A stretch of 64,000 nucleotides of DNA from positions 180,051 to 244,050 of the forward strand of contig JAKJXP020000074.1 of assembly GCA_022225965.2 (NCBI GenBank). The letters run 5' to 3'. Position numbers and translations under genes: made by a program. The stretch is from Diatrype stigma. Its lineage: Eukaryota > Ascomycota > Sordariomycetes > Xylariales > Diatrypaceae. How positions within the stretch are numbered: position 1 is the stretch's first letter; each line of letters starts with the position of its first letter. This document shows, piece by piece, positions 5,042 to 63,978 of the stretch. The notes below the pieces were generated by a model that was not told where the DNA came from, ran no database searches, and saw only the letters and a program-made list of their open reading frames with translations.

Positions 5042-6496
5042 TGGGTGTATGGTTGTATGGGTGGAAATACGTAACGCTGCGCCCGCTACACATACTTTGG
5101 TGCAGTAAAAACAGCAAAAATACAGAAAGTCGGTGCCTGGCGTGAAATTGTATAGGTAGGTAAGTATTGTACTAGGTGGGTAGTCTAGTGGGTGGTGGGG
5201 GAGAGCAGACATGCTAACAAAAATTTCAACTTCTGATAAGTCATGGAGGTAGGTACTTTGGAGTACCATCTGCACGGTAGTTACAGCTATCACTACATTG
5301 AGAGTACCTCTACTGCCTCCCCGTTAACCCACATGCTGTGATGCCTGACAGTGCCGTAGTCCGGTGGCCAATGCACATTCACCATCGTGGATGTCTGCAC
5401 GCAACTTCATATTGCTGTTGTTGTAGAATCAACAGGAACTTGTGCTAAATCACTGCAGGTTTTGTGGTTGTTAACTACCGAATCACCGATGTGCCTGTAT
5501 AACTGTAGGTATCGCTGCCTACATACAGGTACTACATACATGTACCTGTATACCTAGGTATGTATGTATGTAGGTGTTTCAAGGCCAGGCAGATACCAGA
5601 CGTGTAAAGGACATGTATACCAGGTAGGTAGGTACCTCATTAAACCTTCTTGGGTATTCTGGACTCTGGAAAGTACAGGCGAAACAATAGAAACTTGCAA
5701 AGAACCTTGGTCTATATAACACCAGGCAGGTACCACGCACATGTTTGTTGGCTGCCATCCCCTCATTCACTTACACACCGAATTCACTTTTATTCACTAA
5801 GGTTAGCTTTGACTAGAAACTGCTACCGTAGCGACTTAGGCGGGGCTGACTTGACTTCCTTAATCCATTTGTAGCAACCACATAGTGCGTGTAATGGTAA
5901 TGGGTATGGGTGTATACATTAAGTACATATGTACCTCCTATAGTCATGATCGATATGTTATACTCGCTGGTGATTTTCTAAACACGCATCTGCTCTGAAA
6001 AGTATCTTCTATAATGTTGAGTAATTACCCCTAGGGAATTATACCCAAGCAAGTGCAAGGTGCAAGGCATGTAAGTTCCAAGGCCAAGAGCCTATGCAAA
6101 TCTGGCTATAGTCTATAGTTTAAATTCATAGATGCTTCCTCCCCCTCACCTATAGCTTATCTCTATCACGCCTTTCCTCCACATCAATACAGACTAAGAG
6201 ATCATCCCCTTTAGCTTTCATAGCCAGTGGCGGGAGGAAAACATACTTTCTTGTTTTTTCTTATTCCTGCAAGTCAACCACACGTCTTTTGGGCTCTAGC
6301 TAGCATGATGATACACTATAAAATCGAGTTATCAGCACTCCTATCCTCTATGTGCTCTGCCCCTTCTCTCTTTCTATAGCGAGTTCCAACGCCTTGCACA
6401 CATTAGCATACCTATGTATAGTCATTCCGACCCATGTATCCTTGGCCCGTTCATGATGACCAAGCACCTTGATGTTCGTTGCGTTATCTTACCCCC

Positions 6497-9400
6497 TTAT
6501 AGCTTCGAGTCTATGTCTTCGAACTCGCTGAGGTCCCTGACGGGACGGGCCCCCGCGCTAGCAACGAGGCTGGCCTTGAAATCCCGGACGTCCTTGATCT
6601 CAACTGGCACCGTGCCATTCGTGGGGACAGCGTCTTTGCCGTTTGTGACTGTGTCGTTTTCCTGCGTGTCCGGGTTGCTGCTCTGTGCCACTAGGTCCAC
6701 GACGAGTTTGGCACGTGTTGGCGAAGCAGGCGCAATGTAGGTCGAGTAGAACTCAATCATCTCCGACTTGGTGAGGGCGCTGACTTGCGCTGCGTCTTCC
6801 TGGGCTGTACACGGACTGATTAATCACTGGCAATCGTAGAAAGATAATATGGGGGTGGGGGTGGGGTTGCAACTCACCGGCAGCAAAGTCATAGTACTCA
6901 TTGGAAATTTGCGCCCAATGCCTGTTGGTCTCTTGGTCGAGATTCTTCAACTTCTCAAGACGCTTGTTTATCACGCTTCTCTTGTGACTCTCGAATTCAT
7001 CGTCACTCATGGTGGCTATCGTAGTGGCTTGCGATGCGAGGAAGACATCGATGCGCGACTCGAGGTAGTCTGCGGCTTTTTCGCTTTGTATGATGAAGCG
7101 GAAGCCGTAGGTCGTCGATCCGCCTCGCATACCACTAAAGACGACGTACCCAAGCTGTTCCTTAGTTCGCAGCTGGTCGAAGGCCGGTTCGTGAATGAAC
7201 TGATCAAGCAGCTGTGTTTTTGCTCGAACTTTACGGTCCCCCTTATCGCCAATATAAAGGTAATACTCGATACAGTGGTTGACGTTGCCCGGATCCTTCA
7301 GAGCCCTCTTGTAGATGAAGTTGGAACCTGGGGGGAGGATCAACGACCTCATTATAGGCCACTCTTCCTTCGGCAGAGGGTGAGGCTTCAGGATAGCCTC
7401 AATTGTGTCTGTCAGCTTCAGGGCATCCTGCTTGTGCGCGTTCCCATGCACATATGCCTCGATATGAATCTGTGACATGACCTGCTTGTGGAATCCCCTG
7501 ACAGATTCGGCGGTGACGTTGGGCAACTCCTCCACGAACTGCTCCACGACATAGTCATTCTCCGATGTGAGCCACGAGAGATAGTCGCCCACTTGTTGGT
7601 AGGGTTGTTGCCATTCCCAGTTCTGATATCCCCTGATCAGGCGTTCTTTGATGATTTCAAAGCGATCCTCCTTGATCTCGAGGTCTCGCATAGTAATGAG
7701 GACTTGCTCAAGAAGCACTGGGAGCTTGTCGTTGTATCCGGATACTTCAACAAACAGTCCGGGGGAATGAAGGGCGACGTTGTACTGCAAACCAGCTAAT
7801 TCGGCACCGTAGGAGTATTCCTCTAGCGCATCACGTACCAAGTCTGTGAAGACTTTGGCCTTGACCGAATTGGCTGCTGAGGCAGATATCAAACGACTCC
7901 TACAGCTCACTATGAGGTTGGTCTTCGGGACCCAAAAGGTATCGTCCTTCTTCCACCATGTTCGGGCGATTTTGTCGTTGCGAATTACGTGTGGCGCCAA
8001 GGCAGGGTCTTTGACTTCTCTCTTTTCGACTTCGAGCTTCGTCGGGATGAACTGGTTCGCGTGGGGTAGATGTAAAGCAGCTAGCCGGTTCTTCGCAGTA
8101 CTTTTCATAGCAGTCTCTAGTTCCGCTACAAAATCTCCCGGAATGTGCTCCGATTTGTACTCTGTGCCGTACCACTTTTCTTTTTGATCCCAATCACCAG
8201 GGAAGTCCCTGGATACAATGGTCATTCGGAAATTGTCGGGCCTCAGGAGCTCTAGTCCCTTGGTGATGGCCGAAGGATCGAATTTCCGGAAGAGGCTACC
8301 CCCACTCAGAAGCCACTCACGCGGCAAAGGTTTCTGCATCACGGAGCTGATCCTGCTTGTAAAGCGGCTTGCTGGGGTTTTCTGCTTGAACTTGAAGTCC
8401 ACATCAGCCATGCCTTTCTGCTCTTGAAATATCCATTCCTGGGGTGGCGTTTCCCGGAGCAAGGATACGTATTGGAAAAACACCTTGACGATCTCCTTGT
8501 AATGCTTCAGCCCCTGCAAATCGCTGTCAGTATGTCAGAAATTTAGATGACAGTAGGTTCATTCTTACCTCTTTGGTCAGTCGAACCTGGAAATCGAATA
8601 TACCAGGAGTGCCGGAGCAAACGGGATATGCGCCAGCGCTCAGTGTATTGGCCCAACCTTTCGACTTGATGTACGACATGATACTACCGGGCCCTTCATG
8701 TCCGATGAGGTGGCTGATATACCGGCTTGGTTGTGACTCGTATAGATTTTCCTCGTCAAGAAAAGGGAAATAAAGGTTTAGCTCTCTCGAATCCATGACA
8801 GGCTTTGCAAACGTTTGCAAGCAAAGGTACTCTTTAGTAAATGGCGTTTCTGCCTCCCAGCGGTTTTGCGGTAGATCTTTGTTGGGCACCCCGGAGAATA
8901 GTTCGGCGACCCATGTTTCAAGCACGTCAAGCGGCTCCCGCCCAAGCACGACAAGCTTCATGCGATTGGCAGAGTAGTGTTCCCCATGGAACTCGATGAA
9001 CTTCCGTCGAACGTCTACTCCTTCGGCCTCTGGCTTCGTCTTGAGCACCTCGAAGTTTCCGGTAGAGAAGTGGCAATACGGGTGCTTAGGGTTAGAAAGA
9101 CTCTTCTCGAGCTGGTTTAAGCGCCAGGTGTCACTTTGCAGGTTTTTCTTGTTCTCTGAATCAACAGCCCGTAGCTCACGGTCCAGAGTTGATGAAAGGA
9201 AGAGAGGCTCGATGAAGAACTGTGCAAAGCGATCCAAGCCACCGTATAGTGGCGAAGGGTTAGAGGCCGACGGCTCTTCGCCATTGCTGGGCTTAGCAGC
9301 AATGTCAAAATAATAGTTCGTATTGGTGGCACCCGTATAGGCGTTAGAACTTCCCGAGTGTGATGAGAGGTAGACATTGTAGGCATTTTCTACCGGATAC

Positions 9401-9749: not shown

Positions 9750-12700
9750 AGTAGCTAGCTGGGGGTTGTCACGAAGCACCGCGAAACGTGTAAGTGAAAC
9801 GAAGCTGAAAATGAAAGTAAAGGCGGGAAGTTGAAGTTGCTTTCTTTTGCTCTGACTACTAGGACTTAGATATAAGCAGCGGGACACTGGAGTTGCCACT
9901 TTTGATTCACGGACGTCAAAAAGATGGGACGGAAGACGCAATAGTGTCGCTAGTAACAGTGGGGACGCTAGCGAAGAGGTCGGACAATCTGTAGCTTGCG
10001 GATATACCAGCGAGTCGGAATAGATTAGTTGCGTCAAACACTAACAAAGGTGTGATAAAGGTAGGTATGCAAGTGTATACCTATAGGTATGTTTGTCAAC
10101 CTGGGCCCAAGGGTTCTCAACGGCAATGGGGAATGCTGCTATAGTACGGCTGGGCTCGGCGTTAAAACGCTTGTTTGTGCAAGGGGTAAAGGCCGAGTTT
10201 ATCGTGGCAAGTGTTCCTATTCTGTTGCACTAGTTGAAAAGCTGGAATGAAGACAATATGCCTACGCTGTGAGTGGTAAAGGTGAATTCCTATCAGATAG
10301 GTATTGCTCTGTTATTGGACCAGACCTCGGTAGGAGACGTGTTGGTAACACGTTGGACCAACTACCTTGACGGGCTGTGGCATTCGAGGATGAAGACCTC
10401 GAACGACAGACCAAGGCAAGACCAGATGGAAAGATTGCTGTTGTATAAATATATATATCAGGTTTACACCTGCAATGTATGAAAACTGCAGCTTACCCGG
10501 AAGTCTTTCAGCCTAGGGGGAACCCGTGCGGTTGCGCTATATCTATAGTCAACAGCCGCGGATTAGATCCGAAAACTATGTAACAACTCAAGTAGTTAGC
10601 CTGATGTACGTCTCAGCTGAGTTGATATGCTCACTAAAGCATGAGTAATTATGTAAGATCTTATGGGGACAAAAGCTCGCTTGATCATGAGGTCGTGTTT
10701 ACAGTGTGCAGTGGAACATATGTAGTCAGGCTCAGCTCGGTGTGTACATCCGACTCGGGGATATTTGAGAGGTCGGGTGGTAATGTGGACGGATATAGGT
10801 AACTCATGGAAGCCAAAAGGGGAGATGTATGGCGTATGAGATCCAGAGTGTTAGAGAAGGTGCTGGTGGGACAAAATAAGCAAGTCATGGCTAATCGAGG
10901 ATGAGTCTTGCGTCTTGCGTCTTGCGTCTTGCGTCTTGCTGGTTGATTACCTTTCGAATGTTGGCATTAATAAAGGGATGGGTATGTATGCAATGCAAAT
11001 CAAGGCAATCAAGGGTGGCCGTATATACGCCGTATAATACCTATATGTACCTAGGTATGCACAAAGCAGCTCTGGTATGCAGGTATCGAGAGCCAATTGG
11101 ATGCAGGTGTGCGTTGATGGAATTTCAGAAAGAATCTTGGAACCTCCTTGAAGTCCGCCAGGAAGAAGGATCGGTCCTTCGCGGAACCCGACAGTCAGGT
11201 ACGGCGGCAGCTGGGCGGAAGAGCTGCGATGCGACTCGTTACCAAGCGAGTGGGAATGTTGCGGATCGCGACAAGGAGGCGTTTATTTTCTTGAATGGAC
11301 CAGGCTTCCCGTCGAGTCAGCTGGGTAGGCGATACCTCTTCTTGGGCGATCTCTGGAGAGAGGGCGAAGGGGGCCGGCAGTTAATCTGTGATGTATGGGT
11401 GTATGTATGTACGTACACGTGTAGGGAGGAGCCTAGCCGCTATATTGCCTGTATGTAGGTATGTAGGTATGTATGTAGTAGGTAGGTACTAGGTAAGTAG
11501 GACCGCTATAATTATAGCAACAACGGCTGAAGGGGCCGCAAAGGTTAGTACCTACTTAGATATCAAGAGGCAGGCTGGCAGGCAAGGGAATATTGTGGTT
11601 TATGTATGCAAGTGGCTCAAACGAATAGCTCGGGCAGTCTAGACTTATCAAGTACTATTTGTCTTTTTGCGGGCTGAAACCAGTGCACTTCTGAGTGAGC
11701 CTGTCCGCTGCAATTCGAGAAGCAGGAAAGTGACATTGTTTCGTACTTAAGTATTTGAGTAGCAGATCTAAACTCCTCTGCCGCCCAACGGTCCATTGGG
11801 AATCAAGCAGGACACCAAGATGGATGGAATGGGGACACCTACGCTAGTAGATGCATACATCTATTCTACCTCGATCTGCTCGATCCATGTCAGCATCGGT
11901 ATTATATGTAATATGTATTGTGCAGTAGTTAGATCCAGCTACATACCTAGGTACCTACCTAGGTATTGCTATCTGTATACTACCTATAGTATGCAGGTCG
12001 GTAAAAGACAAATGTGAGCACGTGCATAATAAGGCACTCAGTACTACGTTGTGCTGCGTGAATACCTAGCCCAGACTGCCCAGCCTACCAGCCTCTGGGC
12101 GCTAATGCTTGGCTTATAATGTGGGGGAGGACAATGATTATATGCGAGTAGGTATGGAGTATACATGGCAGACAGGTATATAAGAATTGGAGCGGAGTGC
12201 TTGGATCTAGATATCCTATTATAAGTGATGGGTCATATGTACTATAGGGGCGGGTAAAGATCATACTGCATCCGTACCGGCGCCAATAGAAATTGACGGT
12301 CTTGATGGTTGATAGTTGAGAGGTAGACGGTGACAATCTGTCTACAGAAGTCTATGCAAGCGCATACCTTGAGCTACGGTAATAAGAGTCCGGGCCGTGT
12401 CAGTAGTGTCGAGCCAGAATGGTTTATTTGTAACGCTGGCAGCGTTGGGTGAAAATGAGTAGAGGGGCTTGGATAAATCGTAGATAACTCGTAGACATTG
12501 TTTTGTAAGCCAAGCGATAGCTTAAAAGGGGGAGTGTACAGAGTCCCATAGGCCGCCTCTACTCTTTTGATAGTAGTATATTACCATTACCCCAGCAAGA
12601 ATAATCAAAACAAAACCGCGTGTTTCGCCGACCATTATGCATAACATCATACTAGCAAACTACAATAGACCTCTACTAATGTTCCAGTCTGACTATACAA

Positions 12701-27911: not shown

Positions 27912-28053
<142 letters not shown>

Positions 28054-55328: not shown

Positions 55329-57120
55329 ATGCTCAAGCCGATCTTACTAGCGGTCCTCTCATCGATAGTCACCTACCTGTACAATAAGCTGCATTACAAG
55401 CGCTTCAAGCAATATGCCCAGCTGCCTCAGATGCCACCGACCTTGATGCTAGGGAACCTCAAGACTCTGGATGACCTGATCAAGCGTGGCGAGCCCGACC
55501 GCCACCCTGGTAGGTACCTTGCGCGCCTTTTCGTGATGTGCTTTCACGGCCTCTGACCTCTGGTGGCGTAGATTATGTGTTCTCCGAGATGCACGAGATT
55601 CTCGGCCGGCCCTCCCTGATGCTGGTGGATCTGCGCCCCGTCAACCGCCCCATGGTCCTGGTGAGCAGCCACGAAGTCGCGGAGCAGGTTTCGAAGGCAT
55701 CCAAGGCTTTCCCGACCAGCATACCCAAGACCGACCTCAGCTACCTCCTGCACCTGACGGGGCCAACGTCCATCTTGCTTGCCCATGGAGACAAATGGAG
55801 GGCGCTGCGCAAAAGATACAGCCCGGCTTTTGCCCCACAGCACTTGATGACATTCTTGCCATGCATCCTGGAGAAGACGTCAACCTTTGTTCGTCACCTC
55901 GAGGCCTTGGCCAAGACCGGGGAGGAATTCCCTCTGGTAACTCTCGCCATTAACTTGACCTTCGACATCATCGGAGCGGTCGTTATGGACGTGGACCTCG
56001 AGGCCCAACCTCTAGACGCCCACTCGCCCCAGGGCGAACTGGTCCGGCTCTACATCGAGCTGTTCCAGCAATACTGGGACGACAAGGCCGACATGCCTTG
56101 GTGGCTGATCCCCCGCACCCAGATGAAGCGGCGCCGCTTGGGCCAGCGGATCGACGTGCTCCTGAAAGAGATCATCCGCCGCAAACATGCCGATCAGAGC
56201 ACCCTCCCGCTTTTTGGCGGGGAGAGCGCGGCGGGAAGCCGCAGGCCATCGCGCAGCATCCTGTCCCTCAGCCTGCAAGACGCCGCGGCACCGCTCTCGC
56301 CCCGGCTCGTGGACGAGACGTGCGACCAGATCAAGACGTTCCTGCTGGCGGGCCACGACACGACCAGCATCACCCTGTCCTGGGTGTTCTACTGGCTCTC
56401 GCGCACGCCCCGCGCCCTAGCGGCCGTGCGCCGCGAGCTCGACGAGCTCTTCGGCCCCGGGTCGGCGGCGGCGGACCCGGAGGCCGTGCGGCGCCAGCTC
56501 CTGTCCCCCGGCGGCCCCGACCTCGTCCGCCGCATGACGTACGTCGCGGCGGTGGTCAAGGAGACGCTGCGGCTGCACCCGCCGGCCGCCACGGCGCGCT
56601 ACGTGCCGCCCGGGACCGGCTTCACGGTGCGGACGCCGGCCGGCGAGGACCGCTGCCTCGACGGCCTCATCATCTACAACTGCGAGGGCCTGATCCAGCG
56701 CGACCCGAGCGTCTACGGGGAGACGGCCGACGACTTCGTGCCGGAGCGCTGGCTCGGCGACGCCAGCGCCCAGGTGCCCCCCGCCGCCTGGCGACCCTTC
56801 GAGCGGGGGCCCCGCGGCTGCATCGGGCAGGAGTTCGCCATGATCGAGATCCGCATCATCATCGCGGCGGTAGCCCGCCGGTTCGACTTTAGCAAGGTCG
56901 GTCTAGGCGAGCTGGCTCTCGACGAAAAGGGGCAGCCGATTCTGGGCGAGCATGGCATTTACAAGGCCGCATCACATCTCTACAATGTAAGTTACAAGGC
57001 TTTCGCTAAGTTCACCAATGCAGCTCCAGCTAATCACCGGTCGCCTTACAGACAAGACAGGTCAACGCCAAGCCTGTAGATGGGATGAAGATGACGGTCA
57101 AGTTAGTGGCGTGTAGGTAA
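55329..57120 (+). CDS. Cytochrome P450 monooxygenase, membrane-anchored
   Basis: Exons are 55329-55509, 55572-56986 and 57052-57120, giving 554 residues. An N-terminal anchor (MLKPILLAVLSSIVTYLY) is followed by a Pro-containing linker. The I-helix oxygen-binding motif is AGHDTTS, the K-helix is KETLRLHP (ExxR), the PERF-like motif is FVPERW, and the heme loop FERGPRGCIGQEFA places the thiolate at Cys477. The short last exon adds TRQVNAKPVDGMKMTVKLVA; without this splice the frame runs to an unrelated tail. The family number and substrate cannot be read from sequence. It lies in the same accessory tract as the transporter, repeat precursor and UstYa-like genes, so it may modify their peptide. 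Confidence 0.95.
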
Positions 57121-57804: not shown

Positions 57805-59288
57805 TCAGGCCTTGGACTCCTCGTCCCCCGACCCCTGGAATATAGCTGTATTTGAAGGATCTTGGTTTTCTCCTGAGGATATATCTTCAGAGCCCTTGGT
57901 TCGACGGTGCGTTACGACCTGCCTCCATCTGGCTGCCCAAATAAATAGTGCACTGGCAATAGTCGCTGTGCCAGCCCAGACCTGCGCCTTGGAGAAGCTT
58001 CCATTGCCGCTCTGGATCAAAGCCCCTGCTGTTGGTGGACCGGCCAGTGATGCAAACGCCAATATGGAACACACCATCCCGAACCGTGTGCCCATCTTGC
58101 TAGGGTCGGTCGTTAACGACGCAAGTCCTCCCACAAATACTGTTGGCATCCAGGGGGTCAGTCAATTCTAGGTAAGAGCACGACAGGATGGGATATGAAA
58201 ATGAGACTGAAAAGAGGAATCTACAAATTTAGGGCTACGGTTGGGAGACGGAAAAATACGAGATTCAGATACTGACTTCCCTGCGTGGCCCCCGTTGCTA
58301 ACCCGTAGAAGACGGACCATGCGTACAACCCCGCGATGGCGTGGACGGCGATCCAGGCATACAACATGATGCCCAGGAAAGTAGCCGAGACGATCAGAGT
58401 AGGCAGAGCGCCAAAATAGCGGTCGGCGGCGAACCCAAGAACGGGTCGCACGGGTATACCGACGGCGTTGATGACTACGAGCAGGTTCACGGCCGCTTCG
58501 GGGGACAGCCCGACGACCGTGGTGGCGTAGGTGTTGATGTAGAAGAAGCAGAAGTACAGGGCCCAGAAAATGAGAAACACGCCAATGGTGAACAGCAGAT
58601 ACGTCGGCTCCCGGAAGGCATGCCACTCGACCAGCGGGCCTGCCTTGCGGGGCGGCAGCCGCGGGCGGAGCAGGAGGTTGATGACAATGGCGAAGGCGAG
58701 CGCCACGTACCCCTGGACCTGCACGGCGAGGGGAAACCCAACCCTCGGCTGGAGGTGCTGCACGATCAGGGGGAATATGATGCTCCCCGTGCCGCTTCCG
58801 GAGGCGGCCATGCCCAGCGCCATGGCCTTGTTCTTCTTCCAGTACGAGCCGATGACGGCCACGGCGGGCATGTACAGGATGCCCATGCCCAGGCCGGTGC
58901 ACAGGCCCTGGGCGAGGAAGATCTGCCAGTACGTCGTGGCCAGGCTCGTCATGAAGGTGCCGAGCACGATCAGCACGGACCCGAGCAGCGCGGTGTGCTG
59001 GGCGTACCCGGCGTCGGCGGAGCGGCCGGAGAAGGTCCCGACGAAGAAGGTCAGGAAGATCTGGATCGAGCCCACCCAGGACACCTGCCACTCGGGCAGC
59101 TGCAGCGCCGTGGAGTAGTACAGCTGGTAGACGCCGAAGGAGGCGGAGTAGCCCCACGTCAGGGCGTTGATCAGATGGCCGGCGAGGATCTGGAGCCAGG
59201 CGCGGGTGCCGCCGTCGGGGGCCGGGCCCGGATCCTCCTGGATCATGGGGCGGAACAGCAGTCCTGCGATGCGGTTGTGTAACCCCAT
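57805..59288 (-). CDS. MFS transporter, monocarboxylate transporter (MCT/SLC16-like) family
   Basis: Exons are 59288-58277 and 58139-57805, giving 448 residues and about 12 membrane segments. The start PDGGTRAWLQILAGHLINAL and WGYSASFGVYQLYYS is the typical fungal MCT-like entry to helix 1. A-loop text (GRSADAGY), GLGMGILYMPAVAVIGSYWK and FGMVCSILAFASLAGPPTAG follow in order. The intron donor is a weak GTCAGT, chosen because it restores the frame as GATQGIFVGG. Fungal members often sit in secondary-metabolite clusters and may import substrates or export products. The direction of transport is unknown. The gene points toward the P450 and lies about 1.5 kb from the repeat precursor gene. Confidence 0.9.
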
Positions 59289-60781
59289 GGCTGCTCCTCA
59301 AAGTGATAGTGGCGTACGCTTCTCGGGGGGTGGCGTAGGAGGGTGAGCCAATCGATTCGTTAGATTCTTGTCCTAGCTGAGAAACGGGGCGCAGTTTGGC
59401 CGTTGAGGCTCACAATCAAAACAAGCTCTCTGCGAATGATCATACGTTGAGAATCAATAGGCGGGAAGAGCAAACGAAGAAAAAAAAGACAAAAGCTGGC
59501 GAAATTCATGGGGTTTTATGGTCTGTCTACCTTGGTATTAAGCACGGCGTGCATGAGTTGGAAAATTCGAGGTTACCTCTAAGTATCAATAATATAACTA
59601 CGGCATGTAAAGTTTTTCAATAACACTGCAACTGCAGGTGATGCCTATGTCGGACTCCTGGGATGGCCCGTGTAGACCCGTGCATTTCGTGGTCATGATA
59701 AGGCGCGGGCGGCATGTATATCTTAGCGCTGCGGAAGGGCGTGCCTATCTATATCTGGAAGGTGTGTCACCCTGTAGACAGGACATACATACATACGTAC
59801 ATGTAGGTAGCATTCGTATGCGTTACAAGGGTTTTTTTTTTTTTTTTTCAAGGTAATATAGGATCTGCGGGAGCTATCAGTGCAACGGCAGCAGTAGCAA
59901 GGAACCAGGGAAGCTTGCGATTCTATCGTGCGCTTCCTCCAGTCATATCTGAGTAAAGCTTCAGGTGAATACTCCTCGCGCAGATCAACGTGCACGCGTT
60001 GATCTGCGTCCTGGCTGCATGTGACTATGTACATAAGTATGTACATAGATATGTAGCGCTTTATACAAAAGGTACGAGGTAAACTGTGCCGCCATAGGCT
60101 GATTGCTAGCGACCGTTAGGGGTGCTACAGCCTACAGCACCCCTTGTTGCTTGACAGCGTGGGGAAACGCGGGAGGTCCCACCGCTCTTCCACTAGTGAT
60201 TAGCTGTATATACTAAAAGTAGCTAGCAACCTAGCCTGGAGATAAGCGAATCGTGCTATGGCGGGAGCCGTTGGAATGCCGGGCGACAAAAGCCGGCCCC
60301 TCTTGGCAGGCAGGTGTGTCCCCCACTTAGTTACATACACGTGCATATATTTTATCAACTTCACAGATCAATCATAAAGATTCTCACACTTAAAGTTCTG
60401 GATTAAGAACCCCAGTGAGGGTAGGCGATCTCGGGATCGCTAATAGGGGGTAGCTTATAGGAGGCAGCGTAAAGTAAAGACCGAATCATCCGTGAGACCA
60501 ATCATACCTCCGAATCCAACTGAACGTCATCCATCAATCAACATGAGAGTTCGCCCCCCTAAAAAATACTTCCCACATCCCACGTCCGACAACATCCAAC
60601 GTCCAGGTGTCGAGGGGGGGAACCACAGTTCTCTCACCAGATTCACAAGTAAGGTCCCCCTCTCGACGTGCGAAGTGCGAGCAGCCGATACCCCGAGTGT
60701 TCTCGTCGCGGGTGCATCCACTAGGCTGTCAACACCCCCTGGACGGACCCAATGCCGTTTTGGCAAAGCATCTTCAACTGC
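59289..60781. other. Intergenic region upstream of the transporter gene
   Basis: About 1.5 kb with a T19 run near 59831-59849, a 12-bp perfect inverted repeat at 59979-60008, and a TATGTACAT repeat near 60025-60055. It probably contains the transporter promoter and the precursor 3' region. No gene is seen. Confidence 0.5.
59979..60008. promoter_or_regulatory. Perfect 12-bp inverted repeat with 6-bp spacer
   Basis: CGCAGATCAACG at 59979-59990 and its exact complement at 59997-60008, separated by TGCACG. It is a possible dimeric-factor binding site or hairpin, lying 690 bp upstream of the transporter start. Confidence 0.45.
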
Positions 60782-61830
60782 TTAGTCATAAAACCTGCTC
60801 GGTGTCAGCAGCTTCACCAGACACTGAATATAGACTGAAGGTCACTCATACTTCGCGGCATCTTGGTCCGCTACCGGGGCGCGGCGGTCGTAGAACTTCG
60901 CGGCGTCCTGGTCAGCGACTGGGGAGCGGTCGTAAAATTTGGCCGCGTCTTGGTCGGCAACGGGAGATCGGTCGTAGAATTTGGCGGCGTCCTGGTCGCG
61001 CTTGTCGTAGAACTTGGCCGCGTCCTGATCGGCTACAGGAGACCGGTCGTAGAATTTCGCCGCGTCCTGGTCAGCTACGGGGGAGCGGTCGTAGAACTTC
61101 GCAGCGTCCTGGTCGCGGCGGTCGTAGAATCTGTGGCACTTTGTTAGTAAGTGGAAGATGGCAAGCTGGAGTCACAAGACAAGGGGGGAGAACTCACTTG
61201 GCTGCATCTTGGTCGGCAACTGGAGATCGGTCGTAGAATTTGGCTGCATCTTGGTCACGGCGATCGTAGAATCTAATTATAATTGTCAACAGTCATGCTC
61301 CCACCTAGAGCAGAAAGGTATCATATCCTCACTTCGCTGCGTCCTGGTCCGCTACGGGAGAGCGGTCGTAGAACCTGTGGGTTCGGTCGTTAGGGCGAAA
61401 GTCGCGACGGGTTCATATGTGTGTAAGTTACTTACTTAGCTGCGTCTTGGTCACGCTTATCATAAAACCTGAGATCGTGTCAGCCATCTGCGACGGGACT
61501 CGAATGGAAGCATGAACAAAATGGACGTGCTTGGCCAGGTCTTGGTCTGCGGCGGCTGTTTTCAAAAATTGGAGAGCTGCTTTCTCTCCTCTGTCATAGA
61601 ACCTAGACCGCTTGCTCTTTAGCTATGGCTAGCCCCGATGTCTATGTCGTCCCTCGACTTGAGGTCTATGGACTCACAACGTCCTGTCTCTAGCTATGTT
61701 CTCTTCGGGGGGGTTAAAGCAGGAACATAGGTTCCTGTGCTACTTACTTGGCAGCATCCTGGTCAGCCACGGGTGCTGCGAGTGCAGTCACTACAAATGG
61801 GGCGAGAAGGGCGAGCTTGTTGAAGTGCAT
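60782..61830 (-). CDS. Secreted tandem-repeat peptide precursor (candidate dikaritin-like RiPP or Kex2-processed repeat protein)
   Basis: Seven exons assemble to 198 residues: 61830-61748, 61602-61531, 61468-61436, 61374-61333, 61272-61198, 61130-60852 and 60794-60782. The start MHFNKLALLAPFVVTALA is a clear signal peptide. The rest is 13 repeats beginning KFYD, alternating an 11-residue unit (KFYDRRDQDAA or KFYDKRDQDAA) and a 14-residue unit (KFYDRSPVADQDAA); the last exon ends KFYD-stop. The first repeat is diverged (KFYDRGEKAALQ). KR and RR pairs are possible Kex2 sites. Every intron interrupts the Lys codon of KFYD after its second base, so each exon carries whole repeats. Fungal cyclic peptides such as ustiloxin come from precursors of this type with a Tyr-containing core. 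A secreted unmodified repeat peptide or pheromone-like role is the alternative. Confidence 0.85.
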
Positions 61831-63725: not shown

Positions 63726-63978
63726 ATGGCAAGCAGTAAGGAGCAGTATCAAGAAATCTCCCGCTCATCTACAAGCGAGGATCTGCCCTTCCTCGACGGC
63801 AATGGCATAACAGGCCATATCTACCAAGGTCGAAAGAGGAGCATTCGACAGTGTCTCTCCAGAGCCGTATGGCCAGCTATATGCCATCTCACCATCATGT
63901 CAATCTACCTCATTGCTATCACAGCCCTGTTCAATAAGTACATGGTGGGCAAAAACTGTCACGAACCGTTGGTATACT
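63726..63978 (+). CDS. UstYa/DUF3328-like protein, first exon (gene continues beyond window)
   Basis: UstYa-type proteins are membrane-anchored oxidative enzymes that crosslink dikaritin RiPP cores. The exon encodes 84 residues plus one base: a charged cytosolic start (MASSKEQYQEISRSSTSEDL), a basic stretch (GRKRSIRQ), one membrane helix at about residues 50-68 (HLTIMSIYLIAITALF), then CHEPLVY. This layout, and the short segment before the first intron (donor T|GTAAGT at 63979), is typical of DUF3328 genes, where an SPA-x-E motif usually follows. The diagnostic HxxHC motifs would lie in later exons outside the window, so the call rests on topology, the N-terminal pattern and the neighbouring precursor. 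Confidence 0.6.

Follow-up and report, generated by a model that had tools for sequence, protein, structure and literature searches.

The gene at 61830-60782, on the minus strand of the window (the whole stretch of 64,000 nucleotides that was analysed, bases 180051-244050 of contig C74, with its right edge at the contig end, in a 49-Mb genome of 224 contigs), very probably codes for a RiPP precursor that holds several cores, is processed by Kex2 and belongs to the dikaritin kind, as do those of ustiloxin, phomopsin and asperipin. A dikaritin-type precursor is the most likely reading in view of its Tyr-bearing units, the neighbouring gene of the UstYa family, the related precursor and UstYa proteins, and four other UstYa loci of the genome with Tyr repeats close by; no tyrosinase match was listed on C74 or C79, a feature shared with asperipin-2a. 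The kind of system is already known; its core was not found in open main texts. What is unusual is that six introns interrupt the repeat at one codon, and that the units follow either a dibasic site or STE13-like dipeptides.

As for the gene model, it was built from the sequence and has seven exons that code for 198 residues with 13 KFYD units. A preliminary description of this DNA had given the same coordinates, the same number of repeats and a last exon ending in KFYD-stop, all of which match the model exactly; its seven exons were recovered as well, with intron 2 read as GC-AG, and its signal peptide was agreed upon by eye, at residues 1-18/19. We infer all the splice junctions of the following exons:

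61748..61830, minus strand: exon 1, opened by the ATG at 61830, with the signal peptide MHFNKLALLAPFVVTALA and then APVADQDAAK, its last codon split; GTAAGT donor after the AA of the Lys codon
61531..61602, minus strand: exon 2, FYD-RGEKAALQFLKTAAADQDLAK, a degenerate unit; TAG acceptor and non-canonical GC donor
61436..61468, minus strand: exon 3, FYDKRDQDAAK; from the gene model, with a shifted frame of P0001 compatible with the same peptide
61333..61374, minus strand: exon 4, FYDRSPVADQDAAK; from the gene model, with shifted-frame compatibility in P0001
61198..61272, minus strand: exon 5, FYDRRDQDAAKFYDRSPVADQDAAK; from the gene model, with an identical peptide in P0001
60852..61130, minus strand: exon 6, seven DQDAAK-bearing units, intron-free between them; from the gene model
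60782..60794, minus strand: exon 7, FYD-stop, 13 bases; GTATGA donor, CAG acceptor and a CTGAC branch-like site

The introns measure, in order, 145, 62, 61, 60, 67 and 57 bases; five of the six have GT-AG ends, and intron 2 requires GC-AG. All six share one site, between the second and third bases of the Lys codon preceding FYD, which suggests the multiplication of an intron-bearing unit; comparison of the intron sequences with shuffles gave no clear support for a common origin in 10 pairs (introns 2-6, intron 1 left out), with z from -0.58 to 2.83 and the highest value for introns 2 and 6. Because the five internal exons (72, 33, 42, 75 and 279 bases) are all multiples of three, skipping any one of them keeps the frame; the modelled coding sequence has no stop and no frameshift.

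Regarding the repeat, the unit DQDAAKFYD is present in 12 exact copies, along with one copy that reads DQDLAKFYD, and Tyr is found in the core of all 13. The spacings from one KFYD to the next are 24, 11, 14, 11, 14, 11, 14, 14, 11, 14, 14, 15 and 4; the two lengths of 11 and 14 described previously both occur, although they do not strictly alternate, given the values 24, 15 and 4 and the doubled 14s. The 12 junctions after KFYD consist of five dibasic pairs (KR twice, RR three times), six RS and one RG, a count that corrects the earlier statement of KR/RR in some repeats and RS in the others while keeping both types. Before the 13 DQD units stands either the R of KR/RR (four cases) or an X-A dipeptide (nine cases: eight PVA, one AAA); four dibasic sites directly precede DQDAAKFYD, and one precedes APVA-DQDAAKFYD. 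The fragments after the first dibasic site have 25, 25, 39, 39 and 13 residues, basic pair included. By the rule worded in Umemura's main text, a KEP has at least three tandem repeats of at least eight residues between Kex2 dibasic sites (PMC7329392), and the precursor is a KEP by this rule, with the fragments counted on the gene model rather than by Umemura's program.

The array reached a score of up to 346 in Tandem Repeats Finder. Nei-Gojobori proportions over the 78 unit pairs were 0.95 for pS and 0.014 for pN; such high synonymous and minimal protein divergence among 13 copies speaks against a fresh duplication, and purifying selection seems to preserve the unit peptide. An NCBIfam scan of a 109-residue piece of the array gave one match far below its cut-off, to LcrR (E 0.0031; 17 bits, where the cut-off is 139.5), which was set aside as chance.

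The main protein search with the precursor, in which the best 7998 candidates by shared words were scored, provided one true relative, P0001, a predicted protein from another assembly that carries the DQD..KFYD units of the precursor. P0001 corresponds to exon 5 and to a portion of exon 6, its RS, RA and RR junctions being ordered differently, and its shifted-frame stretches are compatible, in one of two shifts, with its encoding the peptides of exons 3 and 4. P0002 (E 0.021), an Arg-rich repetitive protein, was dropped as unrelated. When an 89-residue piece of the array served as query in another protein search, nothing came up at E <= 1 among 2354 candidates, P0001 lying beyond the length range of that search.

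The second element of the locus is a UstYa-family gene at the contig end, now in two parts:

63726..63978, plus strand: first exon of a UstYa (DUF3328) family gene, 86 residues, cut by the contig end; recognised by its identity with P0005, with no Pfam match alone
L021:9618-9956 (from base 9956), minus strand: remainder of the UstYa gene at the end of contig C79; PF11807, 4.5e-16

The exon at 63726 is divergent from the precursor, starts 1.9 kb from the precursor start, and has, by eye, a hydrophobic, membrane-anchor-like stretch. The genome-wide PF11807 search gave matches at the very end of C79 (231957 bases), where the piece has an HHLHC motif and, further on, HCIDDVRQ. A protein of another assembly, P0005, aligns to the two pieces, with 78% identity over 86 residues for the C74 exon and 91% over 55 for the C79 piece; since it spans both, the two contig ends are most likely the halves of a single UstYa gene. 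Read inward, the end of C79 begins with eight G, a plausible cause of the assembly break; within the window, a run of 103 G (27912-28014) is accompanied by one of 25 C (28029-28053), and these homopolymers may be a sign of assembly trouble like that at the C79 end.

This UstYa neighbour had been missed in the preliminary description, which proposed a dikaritin-like precursor from the repeats alone and named the absence of modification genes as one refutation; the divergent gene supports the proposal and, because it adjoins the precursor, that absence does not occur. The chance that a random point falls within 2 kb of a UstYa place is about 0.15% in this after-the-fact test (18 places in 49 Mb, from 24 PF11807 matches merged by hand). 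As for relatives of the UstYa gene, P0003 covers 78% of the query, the C79 piece, at 99% identity, and another protein covers about half of it at 83%; the longest contig given for P0001 and for P0003 alike has 4036 bases, a shared figure that suggests, without proving it, that precursor and UstYa are on one contig in the relative. A PDB sequence search with the UstYa piece gave 0 matches. The PF11807 search revealed no second UstYa in the window or on C79, a lower bound given that the first exon in the window was missed too. Of the 25 remaining open frames (at least 90 residues) in the 10 kb of C79 next to the break, 11 were scanned against Pfam, and none gave a match; further into this contig, two frames match a lactonase and GH16.

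Elsewhere the window carries genes that are commonplace in eukaryotes: Prp19, cofactor genes of the MoaC and radical-SAM types, and those of an M16 peptidase, an OHCU decarboxylase and a ubiquitin hydrolase. The shortness of the introns and the presence of UstYa genes would fit a filamentous fungus; a search of the genome for 5.8S rRNA with Rfam gave no hit, and a piece of Prp19 matched only Prp19 chains in the PDB. The Pfam scan covered 36 of the 152 open frames of at least 100 residues and, on the opposite side of the precursor from the UstYa exon, two frames are of interest:

58224..59297, minus strand: MFS transporter open frame, one exon; PF07690, 2.7e-23
55514..57076, plus strand: cytochrome P450 open frame; PF00067, 3.7e-53

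The MFS protein is a possible exporter of the product and a putative member of the cluster, and it is uncertain whether the P450 is part of it. No reductase was matched among the 36 scanned frames of the window and the 11 near-end frames of C79 besides UstYa, and none of the 22 PF00264 (tyrosinase) matches listed genome-wide is on C74 or C79. Profile matches across the genome also include one Kex2-type P-domain and two of the DPPIV type.

Among the known systems, asperipin-2a has the core FYYTGY, which contains FY as does the KFYD core of this precursor, the two cores being otherwise different; the ustiloxin cluster includes an MFS transporter. Asperipin-2a, a dikaritin of Aspergillus flavus, is described as made with one UstY-family (DUF3328) gene (PMC12048977; PMC7329392), and further likenesses to the present locus are the repeat precursor, the lack of a tyrosinase and the transporter in the cluster, as given in the account of PMC12048977; a difference is that no reductase was identified here among the scanned frames. 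The single UstY gene together with a transporter, by which the asperipin-2a subtype is recognised, is what was found here, with the cluster edge on the C79 side partly annotated. Ustiloxin and phomopsin share with this precursor the signal peptide, the Kex2 repeats and the UstYa family, according to the relevant text of PMC7329392, and the ustiloxin cluster has a P450 (so described in PMC12048977), as there is a P450 near the precursor here. In contrast, the YxIx core is absent from the unit DQDAAKFYD, no tyrosinase was matched on C74 or C79, and those systems have two or five UstYa where one was found here. Epichloecyclins, likened here by description, come from GigA, also a multi-core Kex2-type precursor with a DUF3328 gene, and their products are presented as nonapeptides with an internal Tyr (PMC9233826; PMC7317419); unlike the precursor described here, GigA has 27-residue repeats, an N-terminal Ile in its products and a kexin gene in its cluster, for which no counterpart was identified.

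Several results weigh against the dikaritin-type reading: seven of the 12 junctions are not dibasic, no listed tyrosinase match is on C74 or C79, no second UstYa match came from the window or C79, the 11 scanned frames near the C79 end had no Pfam hit, and the search with the 89-residue piece gave nothing although the UstYa relative at 83% identity exists. An improbable alternative is that the protein is a KEP with linear peptides, which Kex2 and STE13 would free as a developmental or pheromone-like signal, and that the proximity of UstYa is coincidental. Known pheromone peptides contain Trp or Cys (the Pezizomycotina motif), and the unit has neither, being dissimilar to them. The precursor does resemble those of ascomycete alpha pheromones, which combine Kex2 sites with X-A/X-P (STE13) spacers, in that X-A dipeptides precede 9 of its 13 units; Le Marquer et al. 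describe Kex2 followed by STE13 as the typical pattern of alpha pheromones, and in their account the STE13 signature is, within Ascomycota, as a rule found only in alpha-type pheromones (PMC6339444). On the other hand, in the part of Umemura's article that deals with them, pheromone KEPs have no nearby DUF3328 genes, apart from three exceptions (PMC7329392). The precursor of this locus has UstYa immediately adjacent, and probably so in the relative, which also argues against a linear signal.

The Ustilago repellent is a structural or surface repeat protein, and it is very improbable that the protein of this locus is of that sort, cut or uncut, with no crosslinked product: 7 of the 12 junctions are non-dibasic and large fragments could persist, yet the Tyr-bearing units lie beside a UstYa gene, and the NCBIfam profiles gave only the far-below-cut-off match for the array piece and none for P0001. 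It is hardly credible that the precursor is decaying and gives little product, as the degenerate unit RGEKAALQFLKTAAADQDLAK and GC donor of exon 2, and the six junctions with RS where a dibasic pair could stand, might suggest, in view of a modelled coding sequence free of stops and frameshifts, of the excess of pS over pN, and of RS and RA junctions that are common to P0001 and hence not a private loss.

Returning to the dikaritin-type precursor, it would enter the secretory pathway, where Kex2 would cleave after KR/RR and a carboxypeptidase would take off the basic residues; a STE13-like dipeptidyl aminopeptidase would trim SP-VA, AP-VA and perhaps DQ-DA, which would bring the units to a common DQDAAKFYD. 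The released product would be either this peptide or, more fully trimmed, AKFYD; as linear peptides the two have calculated [M+H]+ values of 1072.458 and 643.309, and a crosslink would take 2.016 from each. The UstYa oxidase would join Tyr to another side chain, that of a neighbouring residue, and the MFS protein may carry the product out. The single-Arg sites (KFYD-R-S) would need a monobasic cleavage, otherwise two to three cores would remain joined. A tentative and rather unlikely extension of this scheme is a hybrid system, with UstYa-crosslinked peptides freed in pheromone style (by Kex2 or monobasic cutting, then STE13) and with splicing that varies the number of cores through phase-matched introns, without frameshift.

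With respect to novelty, the text of Umemura's survey reports 7878 KEPs in 1345 of 1461 strains, 22% of them with DUF3328 genes, and Tyr in 65.6% of the repeated sequences of the set; most KEP types are described as unique at least at the genus level (PMC7329392), so that a new core is no surprise but is to be expected. The repeat was not recognised in the preliminary description, which allowed for a new peptide, and the core was likewise not found in open main texts: "KFYD" led to no fungal-peptide paper among those listed, by title or start of the abstract, "DAAKFY" was absent from the open main texts (supplementary KEP tables being outside this scope), and "fyd" was absent from the main texts of PMC7329392, PMC6339444, PMC12048977 and PMC7099791. 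On introns in KEP genes, the one paper that came up, a partial match, lacks the word "introns", and "intron" is likewise absent from the gigA main text (PMC7317419). The locus adds to the fungal RiPPs a Tyr core with a nearby gene of a crosslinking family and a candidate transporter, and its same-site introns and dipeptide-preceded units are features worth following. It also illustrates that such clusters can escape notice when an assembly is broken or the exons are small and numerous, with UstYa split across contigs and the precursor across seven exons.

Other UstYa loci of the genome were scanned for repeats, as 5-residue words recurring at least four times, in 14 regions of 6-10 kb (L006-L013 and L015-L020), apart from the C79 end (L014). 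Precursor-like Tyr repeats were present in four of the 14 and absent from nine; the repeats of L016 were judged not precursor-like. The four arrays are:

L007, about 6030-6540, plus strand, contig C119: signal peptide MKYAFTLMALTGAVFAAPVA (by eye), then 16 YAIR units with mostly single-Arg junctions
L009, 250-560, minus strand, contig C34: RGGTIYR repeats (GGTIYR), then GDVEPMT, with a UstYa match some 3 kb away
L018, 7200-7750, plus strand, contig C85: repeats GDDAVAYNPAVYVMEKR (YNPAVYV), with a strong UstYa match some 2 kb away
L019, 3559-4030, minus strand, contig C19: a MQSKQLFILAFAGLVAAAPL exon and eight IPFYPKR units, most of them after [D/E]SDSEA, adjoining the best UstYa match of the genome

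Only L007 can be read through in one frame, signal peptide to stop; its array, with a UstYa gene within about 2 kb (two exon matches), is a candidate for a ustiloxin/POI2-like YxIx precursor. For the L019 core, a search for "IPFYP" in open main texts gave nothing related, judged by title. The L020 region, at about 50-54 kb of C74, has two neighbouring UstYa-family places, and the scan of that 9-kb stretch found no repeat precursor in it.

These four additional UstYa loci with Tyr repeats would make the fungus a good subject for matching UstYa proteins to cores. The UstYa exon of this locus is distant from those of the other loci, with best identities of 32-47% over short stretches (L020, L010 and others); when the UstYa exons were compared with the C79 piece, that of C19 was weakly similar (32%, E 0.002) and that of C119 gave no meaningful match. 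The C19 and C119 candidates resemble the precursor in the signal peptide (by eye), the Tyr repeats and the nearby UstYa, and differ from it in core sequence and intron layout. The C19 unit DSDSEA-IPFYP-KR parallels DQDA-AKFYD-KR, and by this analogy the actual core may consist of just the final five residues, AKFYD, once DQ-DA is removed. In most C119 units YAI is followed by a lone Arg, so cutting at monobasic sites may be normal in this fungus, or that R could belong to the C119 core.
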